64,000 nt of DNA from an uncultured Paracoccaceae bacterium (GTDB taxonomy: Bacteria > Pseudomonadota > Alphaproteobacteria > Rhodobacterales > Rhodobacteraceae). The notes beneath the pieces are model-generated. The model was not told the origin of the DNA, did no database searches, and saw only the letters and a list, made by a program, of their open reading frames with translations. A program made the position numbers and the translations under genes. The stretch covers positions 1 through 64,000 of the forward strand of contig CANMPD010000015.1 in the NCBI GenBank assembly GCA_947499635.1. Reading direction: 5' to 3'. Within the stretch, counting starts at the first letter, position 1. The number at the start of each line of letters is the position of its first letter. Positions 60,481-64,000 of this stretch are shown one piece after another.

Positions 60481-62049
60481 CTATATGTCTTTGTAAGAGA
60501 TCTCTCGAGTGTCTGCACCTTCACCGATTTTCTCGCGGCGTACGATCAGGCGGTTAAGCGCGTGAATATACGCTTTGGCAGATGCAACAACAGTATCGGT
60601 ATTCGCGCTTTCGCCGGTTGCGATGTTTCCGTCCGCTTCCAGCCGAACCGAAACGGTTGCCTGTGCATCCGTGCCTGCTGTAACGGCGTTTACTTGATAC
60701 AGTTGCAGGCGCGCCGTGTTCGGGTGGATCTTACGGATTGCTTTAAAGGTCGCATCGACAGGGCCATCCCCTTGGGATGTTGCACTTACGTCTTTGCCAT
60801 CTACTTCCATCTCAACGGTGGCCTCAGCAGGTCCGCCTGTACCACAGGTGAGTTTCATTGAGACCAATTGCAGGATGTCGTTTTCGGCATCTTCGCCAAC
60901 ACGCATGAGTGCAATGATATCGTCGTCAAAGACTTCTTTCTTACGGTCGGCCAAGTCTTTGAAGCGTACGAATACATCCTTGAGCTGGTTGTCCCCAATC
61001 TCATACCCAAGTTGAGACAGCTTGTCCCGCAACGCAGCACGGCCAGAGTGCTTGCCTAAGGGCAAGGATGTACCAGCCAGACCGACGTCCTCGGGGCGCA
61101 TAATTTCAAAGGTTTCTTTGTTCTTTAACATGCCATCCTGGTGAATGCCGGATTCATGCGCAAAGGCATTTTTACCAACAATGGCTTTGTTGAATTGAAC
61201 TGCAAAGCCTGAAACCGTCGCAACACGATGCGAGATATGCATGATCTTTCGCGTATCAATTCCCGTGCTCCAGGGCATGATATCGTTACGCACTTTCAGC
61301 GCCATTACGACCTCTTCCAAGGCAGTATTTCCTGCGCGTTCGCCGAGCCCGTTAATTGTACACTCAATCTGACGTGCGCCACCTGCGACGGCTGCCAGAG
61401 AGTTTGCTGTGGCCATGCCAAGATCGTTGTGACAGTGGGTTGCGAAAATGACGTCATCTGCGCCGGGCACCGTAGCGATCAGGCGTTTGATTAAGTCGGC
61501 GCTTTCCATTGGTGCTGTATAGCCAACGGTGTCGGGGATGTTGATTGTCGTGGTGCCGGCTTTGATCGCGATTTCGATGACGCGGCACAAATAGTCCCAC
61601 TCGGTTCGGGTGGCGTCCATAGGGGACCACTGCACATCATCCACCAGATTTCGCGCATGGCTGACGGTGTCATGGATTTTCTGCGCCATTTCATCCTGAG
61701 TCAAATTTGGAATGGCGCGGTGTAGTGGAGATGTACCGATAAAAGTGTGGATACGGGGGCGTGCAGCTTTGCGCACAGCTTCGGCACAGCGATCGATGTC
61801 TTTAAAGTTTGCACGTGCCAAACCGCATATAGTTGATGCTTTTGAGCGCTCTGCAATCTCTGAAACAGCGCGAAAATCGCCCTCTGAGGCAATTGGAAAT
61901 CCCGCCTCGATGATATCAACGCCCATATCATCCAAAAGCTCTGCGATTTCGAGCTTTTCTTCATGGGTCATCGTCGCGCCAGGGCTTTGCTCGCCGTCAC
62001 GCAGTGTCGTGTCAAAAATCAGGACGCGATCGTTGTCTTGAGATGTCAT
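60481..62049 (-). CDS. leuA: 2-isopropylmalate synthase
   Basis: First committed step of leucine synthesis: condenses acetyl-CoA with 2-oxoisovalerate. The start at 62049 (MTSQDNDRVLIFDTTLRDGE) gives 522 residues, the typical long form; an ATG 11 codons upstream is possible. The TIM-barrel has DTTLRDGEQSPGATMTHEEK, the metal site FATHCHNDLGMATANSLAAV and INGLGERAGNTALEE. A linker with GKHSGRAALRDKLSQLGYE and a C-terminal LeuA dimer domain (leucine feedback site) follow. The 230 bases upstream contain a Leu-rich leader peptide and paired hairpins, so attenuation by leucyl-tRNA is likely. Confidence 0.96.
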   Translation of the reverse strand: MTSQDNDRVLIFDTTLRDGEQSPGATMTHEEKLEIAELLDDMGVDIIEAGFPIASEGDFRAVSEIAERSKASTICGLARANFKDIDRCAEAVRKAARPRIHTFIGTSPLHRAIPNLTQDEMAQKIHDTVSHARNLVDDVQWSPMDATRTEWDYLCRVIEIAIKAGTTTINIPDTVGYTAPMESADLIKRLIATVPGADDVIFATHCHNDLGMATANSLAAVAGGARQIECTINGLGERAGNTALEEVVMALKVRNDIMPWSTGIDTRKIMHISHRVATVSGFAVQFNKAIVGKNAFAHESGIHQDGMLKNKETFEIMRPEDVGLAGTSLPLGKHSGRAALRDKLSQLGYEIGDNQLKDVFVRFKDLADRKKEVFDDDIIALMRVGEDAENDILQLVSMKLTCGTGGPAEATVEMEVDGKDVSATSQGDGPVDATFKAIRKIHPNTARLQLYQVNAVTAGTDAQATVSVRLEADGNIATGESANTDTVVASAKAYIHALNRLIVRREKIGEGADTREISYKDI

Positions 62050-62136
62050 AGTGGTGTCTTTCTTGCTCAGTCTGTCGTGCATTATATGCCAAGTTGCCGG
62101 TCATCAATGTTGCGGCGCATCTTGGTGTTGGTCCGT

Positions 62137-62186
62137 GGCGCGCATGCATCCCTCTGAGCGGGCGCGCCGGATGGCACGCTCAGAGG
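62137..62186 (-). promoter_or_regulatory. Alternative hairpins (attenuator candidate) upstream of leuA
   Basis: Stem A: CCTCTGAGCG/CGCTCAGAGG, a perfect 10-bp stem between 62186-62177 and 62160-62151 on the minus strand. Stem B: GCGCGCC in the loop of A (62168-62162) can pair with its complement at 62143-62137. A and B exclude each other. The leader-peptide stop codon lies in the first arm of stem A. No run of U follows either stem, so the mechanism (terminator, Rho, or masking of translation) is open. Confidence 0.6.
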
Positions 62187-62284
62187 CAGATTAGGAGCAG
62201 TAGGTCACGCGCATAAACACCGCCAAAGGCAGTGCGAGACAAGGTGATATCAAAGCGCGTATTCATAGGTGTGGATTTATACAT
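62180..62284 (-). CDS. leuL: Putative leucine leader peptide of leuA
   Basis: A 34-codon frame (ATG at 62284; a second in-frame ATG at 62266 gives 28 codons) ends with DLLLLICL and TGA. The Leu codons are CTA, CTG, CTC, CTA and, after Ile and Cys, CTC. A run of leucine codons, including CTA, directly before a hairpin and ahead of leuA is the hallmark of ribosome-mediated attenuation. No clear ribosome site precedes either ATG, but a TATAAAAT box around 62310 would place the transcript start close to the first ATG. Function is inferred from position and codon content. Confidence 0.7.
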   Translation of the reverse strand: MYKSTPMNTRFDITLSRTAFGGVYARDLLLLICL

Positions 62285-62354
62285 CGAACGTGTCGAATGA
62301 AAAGAGATATTTTATAAGTTTAAGCTGAGATTGATTTACACAGAACTCTGCGTC

Positions 62355-63812
62355 TTATTCGTCCTCAGCTTTTTCTATTGCGACGCCTGCACGTCCCGAG
62401 GTCAATGCACCGTTCTCCCATGTGCCTGTGGCCTCTTGACCAGACGCATAGCGCATTGTGCCGGGGCCTTGGCGTTTAGAGTTTTCGAAACTGCCCTCGT
62501 AAACATCGCCGTTTGTATAGGTGGCGACGCCTTGACCGCTGATTTTTCCTTCGGACCAGTCGCCATCATAAGTGAAACCATCTGTCATGGTGATTTTACC
62601 CACACCGTGACGTTGGCCCGAGGCGAAGGTGCCTTCATAGATAGATCCGTCAGAGTAGGTTACGGTTGCAGCGCCGTCGCGCAGGCCATCTTTCCAACTG
62701 CCTTCATAACGATACCCGTCGGGATAGGTCATTATACCATGCCCGTGGTTTTTCGCGTTCTTAAAGCTGCCTTCATATACGACTCCGTTCGGGTATCCGG
62801 CCTTGCCATTGCCTTCGATCACGCCGGCAACCCAATCCCCTTGGTATGTAGACTTATCTGGATAGGTAATTTTACCGTGGCCGTCTGGTAAATCGTCGCG
62901 AAAGTTTCCGACATAAAGTGACCCATCAGGATAAGTAACCTGACCTTTTCCCGAGATCTGTCCGTTTTCCCACTGTCCACTATATATATATCCATCGGCA
63001 CCTGTGAATGTGCCTTGGCCTTGTCGCAGGTCACCTTTGAACATGCCCTTGTATGTATCGCCGTTTGCGTAAGTTAAGACGCCTTCACCTTCGCGATGCC
63101 CATTGGCCAGCGGTCCCTCATAGGTGTCTCCATTGGGTTGAGTGAGCTTGCCGATGCCATTCATCTGGTCGGCAGTCCATTCTCCCTCGTAAACGAGGCC
63201 GTCAGGCATGATTAAGGTGCCCGTTCCTTCAAGTTTCCCGTCTTTGATGTCCCCGGTATATGTCGCGCCAGTCGGGTAGGTGATTTTGCCTTGTCCTTCT
63301 TTGCGGCCTTCGACCCATTGACCATCGTATTCGTATCCGCCGGGATTGACCATAATGCCGCGACCATGATGACGGGCATTCTGGAACGCGCCGTCATAGC
63401 GAACACCGTTTGCATAAAGCGCAATGCCATGGCCATTTATGGCGCCGTCAGCCCATTCGCCCTCATATGTGCCGCCGTCTGCAAACGTAATTTTCCCGAC
63501 ACCTTCAGGTTTGCCTTTTACGAAATCGCCTTCGTAGATCGATCCGTTGGGAAAACGTGCGACACCTGTGCCGCGAATTTCACCTTCGATCCACTCGCCC
63601 GTGTATTCGTAACCATTGGGCAGTCGATAGGCACCGTGCCCATGTTGTAGGCCATTTTGAAACTCGCCTTCATAGATCCCGCCAATGTCATCTTGTTTGC
63701 TTATGATTTGTGCAGTCTGGGCCGAAGTTGTCGTGCTTAACGGGTATTGAGCCAGTGCGATGACGGTGCAAACTGTGATCAGGGGGCGAAAGCTGCGGCG
63801 AAGAGGTGTCAT
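62355..63812 (-). CDS. Exported MORN-repeat protein
   Basis: The start at 63812 (MTPLRRSFRP) has AGGATAAG upstream; an ATG seven codons earlier lacks one. The 485-residue product has a signal peptide (PLITVCTVIALAQYPLSTTT, then SA-Q). About 18 tandem 23-residue MORN repeats follow (Y-x-G-x-W/F ... G-x-G-x-x-x-Y-x-D/N-G), for example YEGEFQNGLQHGHGAYRLPN and YDGDWSEGKISGQGVATYTN, plus one degenerate repeat. The C-terminal tail is short and acidic. In eukaryotes MORN sheets bind lipids or proteins; bacterial functions are mostly unknown. The number and regularity of repeats suggest an elongated periplasmic or surface beta-sheet. Confidence 0.9.
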   Translation of the reverse strand: MTPLRRSFRPLITVCTVIALAQYPLSTTTSAQTAQIISKQDDIGGIYEGEFQNGLQHGHGAYRLPNGYEYTGEWIEGEIRGTGVARFPNGSIYEGDFVKGKPEGVGKITFADGGTYEGEWADGAINGHGIALYANGVRYDGAFQNARHHGRGIMVNPGGYEYDGQWVEGRKEGQGKITYPTGATYTGDIKDGKLEGTGTLIMPDGLVYEGEWTADQMNGIGKLTQPNGDTYEGPLANGHREGEGVLTYANGDTYKGMFKGDLRQGQGTFTGADGYIYSGQWENGQISGKGQVTYPDGSLYVGNFRDDLPDGHGKITYPDKSTYQGDWVAGVIEGNGKAGYPNGVVYEGSFKNAKNHGHGIMTYPDGYRYEGSWKDGLRDGAATVTYSDGSIYEGTFASGQRHGVGKITMTDGFTYDGDWSEGKISGQGVATYTNGDVYEGSFENSKRQGPGTMRYASGQEATGTWENGALTSGRAGVAIEKAEDE

Positions 63813-63951
63813 GGCAATCTTATCCTGCCGCATCTTAAGGCGGCAGCTCCTGTCGGGGGGCTACATTTCTTCCGAAGTCTAAGGGAGGGATAGGATTGTC
63901 GCAACGGTTTTACCTTGCACTCTTTCTCTTTGGCAAAAACCTGATAAATGC

Positions 63952-64000
63952 CTAGGAGAATACCTGTCTGGCGACTGCTTTGGCGATTGCGAGATCGGGA
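63952..64000 (-). CDS. Possible C-terminal end of a gene running past the right edge
   Basis: On the minus strand the last 15 codons of the window read PDLAIAKAVARQVFS followed by TAG. The Ala-rich amphipathic sequence looks like the end of a real protein, and the AT-rich bases after it look intergenic. The piece is too short to assign; it may also be chance. Confidence 0.3.
   Translation of the reverse strand, partial: PDLAIAKAVARQVFS

Follow-up and report, generated by a model that had tools for sequence, protein, structure and literature searches.

A leucine leader with its stop codon inside a pseudoknot precedes leuA in Rhodobacterales and is a candidate ribosome-gated switch of the LEU kind

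The leuA gene of an uncultured Paracoccaceae bacterium is preceded by a short leader frame that ends in a run of leucine codons and stops inside the first stem of an H-type pseudoknot, and leaders of this kind recur ahead of leuA across the order. From comparison of these leaders, we propose that the element would act in cis as a ribosome-gated switch for leuA by translational attenuation, a reading that we favour with moderate confidence. By analogy, we also place it as a new variant of the LEU kind of element described in Actinobacteria, and suggest that it works like one. The coordinates of its parts are collected in Table 1, where the window is the whole stretch of 64,000 nucleotides that was analysed.

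Table 1. Features of the leuA leader region of the window.
Feature	Position	Strand	Basis
-35-like box TTTTCA, within the conserved stretch CTTTTCATT (62304-62296)	62298..62303	minus	CTTYYC pattern in relatives
-10 box TATAAA, 9 nt 5' of the leader ATG	62276..62281	minus	match to TATAAT across leaders
Leader ORF MNTRFDITLSRTAFGGVYARDLLLLICL-stop, 28 residues, predicted leaderless	62180..62266 (ATG 62266, stop TGA 62182-62180)	minus	SD-like 5-mer in 0/76 leaders; frame-blind test
GATATC, the window's instance of the SATATC kept at leader ORF positions +16 to +21	62246..62251	minus	76-leader profile
Hairpin GCACTGCC-TTT-GGCGGTGT inside the leader ORF, 5' of the Leu run	62217..62235	minus	stem scores against shuffles
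Four consecutive Leu codons CTA CTG CTC CTA, which in relatives form base-stem strand A	62192..62203	minus	sequence reading, relatives' leaders
Stem 1, 5' arm (B) CCTCTGAGCG, contains the stop TGA 62182-62180	62177..62186	minus	perfect pairing, covariation
Stem 2, 5' arm (C) GGCGCGC, in the stem 1 loop	62162..62168	minus	complementary to C'
Stem 1, 3' arm (B') CGCTCAGAGG	62151..62160	minus	pairs perfectly with B
Stem 2, 3' arm (C') GCGCGCC, which completes the H-type pseudoknot	62137..62143	minus	complementary to C
Spacer from C' to the leuA start	62050..62136	minus	houses A', the partner of the Leu codons, in relatives (such as GGCUAAGGA)
leuA, 2-isopropylmalate synthase	60481..62049	minus	starts MTSQDNDRV; TIGR00973 659 bits, NF002087 832 bits

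In a protein family scan the leuA product of the window scored above the cut-off in both families listed in Table 1. Directly 5' of the leuA leader, also on the minus strand, lies the gene of a MORN-repeat protein of 492 residues with 12 scored repeat stretches (62355-63833). The initial annotation had described a leader with the Leu codons CTA CTG CTC CTA and a later CTC, a perfect 10-bp hairpin with the stop codon in its 5' arm, and a hairpin loop complementary to a downstream GC-rich segment; all of these were recovered, the later CTC (62185-62183, minus strand) standing just before the leader stop. It had taken the two pairings to be alternatives. Both stems indeed exist, but they are compatible rather than exclusive: their arms follow one another in the order B, C, B', C', which makes an H-type pseudoknot whose stems measure 10 and 7 bp and whose loops measure 8, 1 and 7 nt, and pairing of the loop excludes only a short inner extension, UGCC:GGCG. 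The mutually exclusive hairpins were accordingly replaced by the pseudoknot, which is better supported than the inner hairpin because stem 2 covaries while the inner helix shows no change on both sides. Shuffling the 148-nt stretch 62137-62284 2000 times gave a perfect 10-bp stem with a loop of 3-40 nt in 5 cases, and an H-type pseudoknot with short loops and at least 9 and 6 perfect pairs in stems 1 and 2, respectively, appeared in none of 2000 shuffles of 62050-62266. Free energy on its own is weak as evidence here (z -1.81, with 9 of 200 shuffles folding as well).

The start of the leader had to be revised. It had been read as a frame of 34 codons beginning at an ATG at 62284, a start that is probably wrong because it overlaps the -10 box and because relatives start at the equivalent of the ATG at 62266. 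The promoter was profiled in 76 of 102 leaders, namely those where an in-frame ATG could be picked by the peptide pattern. At least four of the six positions of TATAAT were matched near the ATG in 72 of these 76 leaders, 71 of them at 6-9 nt before it (shuffled mean 15.2, maximum 23), and CTTYYC started 35-39 nt 5' of the ATG in 55 of the 76. No Shine-Dalgarno sequence was visible before the leader of the window, and an SD-like 5-mer was present in 0 of 76 leaders, which bears out the earlier remark that there was no clear ribosome site. When the ATG was instead picked by the promoter pattern with the frame ignored, the frame proved open and in register with the Leu run in all 68 relatives as well as in the window, the promoter-plus-ATG pattern being present in 69 of 104 leaders. 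This pattern was found in 14 of a further set of 30 order-level loci, and there too the ATG was in frame every time (14/14). From its -10 box, transcription in the window is predicted to start at the AUG or at most about 3 nt from it. Since the -10 box lies 6-9 nt 5' of the ATG and no Shine-Dalgarno sequence accompanies it, the leader mRNA is predicted to be leaderless, and the absent ribosome site would be explained by such a start.

Two further features lie within the leader frame. The hexamer SATATC, mostly CATATC or GATATC, is kept at +16 to +21 across the 76 profiled leaders, and the choice of CAT (41) over CAC (5) suggests that it is conserved at the nucleotide rather than the peptide level. 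The hairpin inside the frame ends about 35 nt before the leader stop, and its sequences vary in relatives yet stay paired; the stem scored 17.1 in 17 rows of the same genus (shuffled 13.0 ± 0.66) and 14.6 in 85 other rows (shuffled 13.05 ± 0.26). It could be a pause hairpin for RNA polymerase.

The tie between the leucine leader and leuA, as claimed at the outset, was borne out in relatives. A leader ending in a Leu run was present at 78 of 80 leuA loci, in addition to the window; none was found in L067, and L072 has only 3 bases upstream. A covariance model, R1, was built from 73 of 79 leaders (alignment A3, from which L014, L075, L076, L078, L079 and L080 were left out). It matched once per genome in 291 of 292 genomes of the order, covering 112 of 112 genera, and once in the genome of the window. 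The names used for order and class are those of the named relatives among the 80 loci. Within the genus 17 genomes were sampled, one of which (G014, 67% complete) gave no full leuA, and the same-genus loci all matched R1 (16/16). Under strict filters the model matched 25 times in the 289 class genomes, one of these matches being the window's own, and a LeuA-type motif lay downstream of every one of the 25 and of all 30 order-level loci examined, the best-scoring 30 of those matched; all 55 loci checked thus precede a LeuA-type gene. At E 1 R1 found nothing in L067, L106, L109, L110 or L111, and a Leu leader with its stop inside a stem was seen by eye in L109 and L110 despite the lack of a match.

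The initial annotation had suspected a variant peculiar to Rhodobacterales. Of the alphaproteobacterial loci, those of the Rhodobacterales-like set alone showed the pseudoknot. The leader with its stop in a stem is spread more widely and is not confined to Rhodobacterales, because 25 of 289 genomes of the class match, all before a LeuA-type gene; other Alphaproteobacteria retain both leader and stop-in-stem hairpin. In 26 other alphaproteobacterial loci stem 2 was not seen (11.2, with 12.2 expected) and the base stem described below was barely present (15.9 against 14.8), and a pseudoknot in all Alphaproteobacteria is unsupported. In five loci (L115 and L117, both among the 55 checked, and L007, L023 and L026; only the protein of L115 was scanned) a cupin-like gene apparently stands between leader and leuA, and the complement of the Leu codons then precedes the start of the cupin-like gene. 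A 17.9-kb record of Phaeobacter inhibens labelled as a plasmid (NZ_CP081282.1) holds the leader, leuA and an adjoining annotated rlmJ, and may be a chromosomal fragment rather than a plasmid.

An alignment of relatives had been proposed as the check on the Leu run, on the position of the stop within a stem and on covariation in both stems; the leader proved strongly conserved, and the helices fared as follows. In alignment A2, which holds 65 of 79 leaders (L003, L010, L014, L019, L044, L046, L053, L059, L073, L075, L076, L078, L079 and L080 were left out), stem 1 was paired in 97.7% of cells and had three pairs with changes on both sides, the inner alternative helix was paired in 93.7% of cells with no such change in its four pairs, and the base stem was paired in 66.1% of cells with both-side changes in 6 of 9 pairs. 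For the three helices together, 58 cells changed on both sides (27.8 in shuffles) and the covariation score was 0.161 (0.107 in shuffles), values reached in none of 500 shuffles in either case, and with the partner columns slid by 1-3 the paired share fell from 85.1% to 28.5-50.1%. Counted by pairs, both-side changes were no more frequent than in shuffles (9 against 7.8, 112 of 500 as high). Stem 2 was scored without an alignment in 79 leaders, giving 18.9 for each leader's own arms, 16.7 for arms swapped between species and 12.8 ± 0.3 for shuffled arms; in the further 30 order-level loci, chosen as best-scoring, it reached 19.6 against 12.2 shuffled. Its middle pair, read in 69 of the 79 leaders, was C-G in 56, T-A in 11, T-G in one and C-T in one. 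On a quick tree of the 79 LeuA proteins this pair had six supported independent tree pairs, of which 5.7 on average changed together (median p 0.031), and columns of stem 1 gave p 0.25 and 0.5; seven such tests were made, two with a median p below 0.05, uncorrected. On these alignments and scores stem 1 and stem 2 both covary, and we regard the leader frame, stem 1 with the stop inside it and stem 2 as established by sequence comparison.

A third helix, the base stem, joins the Leu codons (A) with a segment before the downstream gene (A'). In 78 of 79 leaders (L010 left out) it scored 17.0 with each leader's own strands, 13.3 with swapped strands and 12.5 ± 0.27 with shuffled strands, and 32 of the 78 loci singly exceeded the 95% level of their shuffles, where about 4 were expected. 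In 30 of these 32 loci A', often GGCUAAGGA, ended 5-24 nt ahead of the start codon, a nearness that is partly built in because the searched stretch runs up to that codon and is about 42 nt long on average. Both-side changes fell mainly at the third positions of two of the Leu codons (columns 12 and 15). Under one coding, column 12/125 had seven tree pairs, of which 5.7 changed the same way (median p 0.031, range 0.016-0.45); tree support was absent for column 15/122 (2 pairs) and for column 17 (median p 0.25). In the further 30 order-level loci, again the best-scoring, the base stem reached 18.65 against 12.9 shuffled, the swapped value being high as well at 16.9; a pyrimidine-rich Leu run pairs to some degree with purine-rich ribosome-binding sites generally. 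Tested singly, 8 of 18 rows lay at p ≤ 0.025 and 10, the window among them, at 0.115-0.445, with the searched stretch of two of the 18 (L084 and L097) shortened by the start pattern. The window's own Leu-codon duplex was no better than shuffles (p about 0.29) and offered no convincing A', the best candidate including GAGCA about 13-14 nt before leuA. Across the relatives taken as a set, the sequences support a base stem close to where the next gene starts.

We infer from this arrangement how the switch would work. Transcription would begin at or next to the leader AUG, where, judging by the spacing of the -10 box, a ribosome would initiate without a Shine-Dalgarno sequence. With ample leucine the ribosome would pass the Leu codons, enter stem 1, terminate at the UGA within it and depart, whereupon the RNA could fold into the pseudoknot (B:B' with C:C') and, in many relatives, the freed strand A could pair with A' close to the downstream gene's start and so presumably hold that gene's translation low. 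Given the usual ribosome footprint, a ribosome halted on the Leu run would cover A and leave stem 1 free, and one that has reached the UGA would cover stem 1. Under a shortage of charged tRNA-Leu, the ribosome would probably stall on the Leu codons, which are enriched in CTA and CTT: the two make up 18.4% and 37.1% of the Leu codons of leaders (n = 321) as against 1.1% and 7.6% of those of leuA genes (n = 2880). The stalled ribosome would cover A with stem 1 free, so that A' could not be sequestered and leuA would be translated. In the window, whose base stem is either weak or replaced, the pseudoknot may need to work on its own.

Rho-dependent control, in which translation of the leader, or release at its stop, would set the loading of Rho in the leader or in untranslated leuA, draws on the lack of an intrinsic terminator at most loci and on the composition of the spacer that separates C' from the start codon (3302 nt summed over 78 loci), which is rich in A and C and poor in T (A 0.36, C 0.28, G 0.23, T 0.13), and it could combine with translational control through polarity. 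That spacer is short, however, averaging about 42 nt and reaching 87 in the window, C exceeds G only mildly, and the covariation points to a structure and not to a free loading site, so that we think Rho-dependent control unlikely.

Classical transcription attenuation, in which a stalled ribosome would determine whether an antiterminator or an intrinsic terminator forms ahead of leuA, seems to us more improbable still. The leader peptide with its control codons and the alternative pairings would suit it, and such attenuators are described for trp and ilv genes of Alphaproteobacteria in the available parts of two papers (PMC10117765, PMC4117421). The initial annotation had already pointed out that no U-tract follows either stem in the window, and this held, with no terminator-like site in 61900-62700; over the relatives, at least four T in 8 nt followed B' in 3 of 79 loci and C' in 4 of 79. 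With so few T-runs, an intrinsic terminator is not the rule, and it was rejected as such on these counts and on the terminator-free 61900-62700. Searches against Rfam (release 15) gave no match in window positions 61000-64000 at E up to 10, and at the gathering score 14 loci gave only tRNA and chrB-b, both elsewhere in L079. A distant leuA leader of AT-richer, low-GC sequence (L109), viewed by eye, has a stop-containing hairpin followed by a T-run and is possibly a terminator version.

Least probable in our judgement is a reading in which a regulatory protein binds the RNA and the leader peptide is secondary, as was argued from Leu-codon mutants by the authors of the actinobacterial LEU element (PMC1262725, in the parts available) and as the very regular dimensions of the pseudoknot might suggest; throughout the order the leaders retain their Leu codons, frame and predicted leaderless start, their codon choice is far from the leuA-gene average, and the proposed protein is reported in the same text to be absent outside Actinobacteria.

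Leader peptides with adjacent Leu codons are known from the leucine attenuators of enterobacteria. The present element differs from them in having no intrinsic terminator and no Rfam match. A closer likeness is found in the LEU element of actinobacterial leuA, for which the available text of Seliverstov et al. (2005; PMC1262725) describes a Leu leader, a pseudoknot, a base stem joining the Leu codons with the Shine-Dalgarno sequence of leuA, and an alternative hairpin. According to that text, mutations of the leuA leader of Streptomyces coelicolor had some effect inconsistent with classical attenuation, Leu-codon mutations are elsewhere in it said to be without influence on regulation in this species, and the mechanism was left open. 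Common to the LEU element and the window are the Leu-run leader before leuA and the pseudoknot. As for the other two parts, the inner helix, set against the alternative hairpin, is paired in 93.7% of cells with 0 of 4 pairs changed on both sides, and the base stem exceeds shuffles and swaps as a set, in 32 of 78 loci singly and in the window at p about 0.29. The two elements also belong to different phyla and differ in the sequences of their helices, and the base stem of the window is weak.

One actinobacterial element was examined directly, picked because one was expected there. In Nocardia farcinica the leader is MQRALLLGRRDGV and the segments follow in the order A-B-C-B'-C'-A', the stems being 10 and 7 bp long and the loops 9, 1 and 11 nt, which is the same topology; GAGAA, 4 nt before the start, stands opposite TTCTC within the Leu run. 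N. farcinica has its stop codon in the loop, the window inside stem 1. The LeuA-type gene is unannotated in that record and was named from similarity alone (27% identity over the match). R1 gave a weak match exactly at the element (869-941; E 0.018 in 160 kb), and Rfam gave no family match in this stretch either. In a second actinobacterial locus, a 2-isopropylmalate synthase gene on a Streptomyces plasmid, no Leu leader was seen by eye in the stretch shown and R1 did not match. For Streptomyces lividans, the available part of PMC8079986 reports the leader leuL1 MRFGLLLLSCRGEGL as leaderless and without a typical terminator. The shared features, the topology in N. farcinica and the leaderless leader reported for S. 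lividans are our reasons for placing the window element, by kind, with the LEU elements.

Within Alphaproteobacteria, the available text of PMC10117765 presents trpL of Sinorhizobium meliloti as an attenuator from which the small RNA rnTrpL arises; it resembles the window in having a leaderless control ORF before an amino-acid gene, and differs in answering to tryptophan and in that no pseudoknot is described there. The literature matches listed contained no report of such an element in Proteobacteria, and for PMC8632094, PMC6429828 and PMC11109978 the listing counts 0 occurrences of the word leuA.

A broader conjecture, which we advance tentatively and consider rather doubtful, is that a single type of leuA switch is common to Actinobacteria and Alphaproteobacteria, composed of a leaderless Leu leader, an H-type pseudoknot and a base stem through which the Leu codons would mask the ribosome-binding region of leuA, and that a stalled ribosome would unmask leuA directly by occupying the mask. 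The sensor codons and the effector strand would then be the same nucleotides, and the deviation of the Streptomyces Leu-codon mutants from classical attenuation would be explained, as such mutations would break the mask too. If the likeness across phyla is due to descent rather than convergence, this would be an old RNA switch.

Rhodobacterales are common in the sea, and for this order the element is a nearly universal candidate regulator of leucine synthesis that has no Rfam family and comes in hundreds of natural variants. The stop codon inside the pseudoknot, together with the compensatory changes at synonymous sites in the sensor codons, would make for a concrete and testable mechanism.
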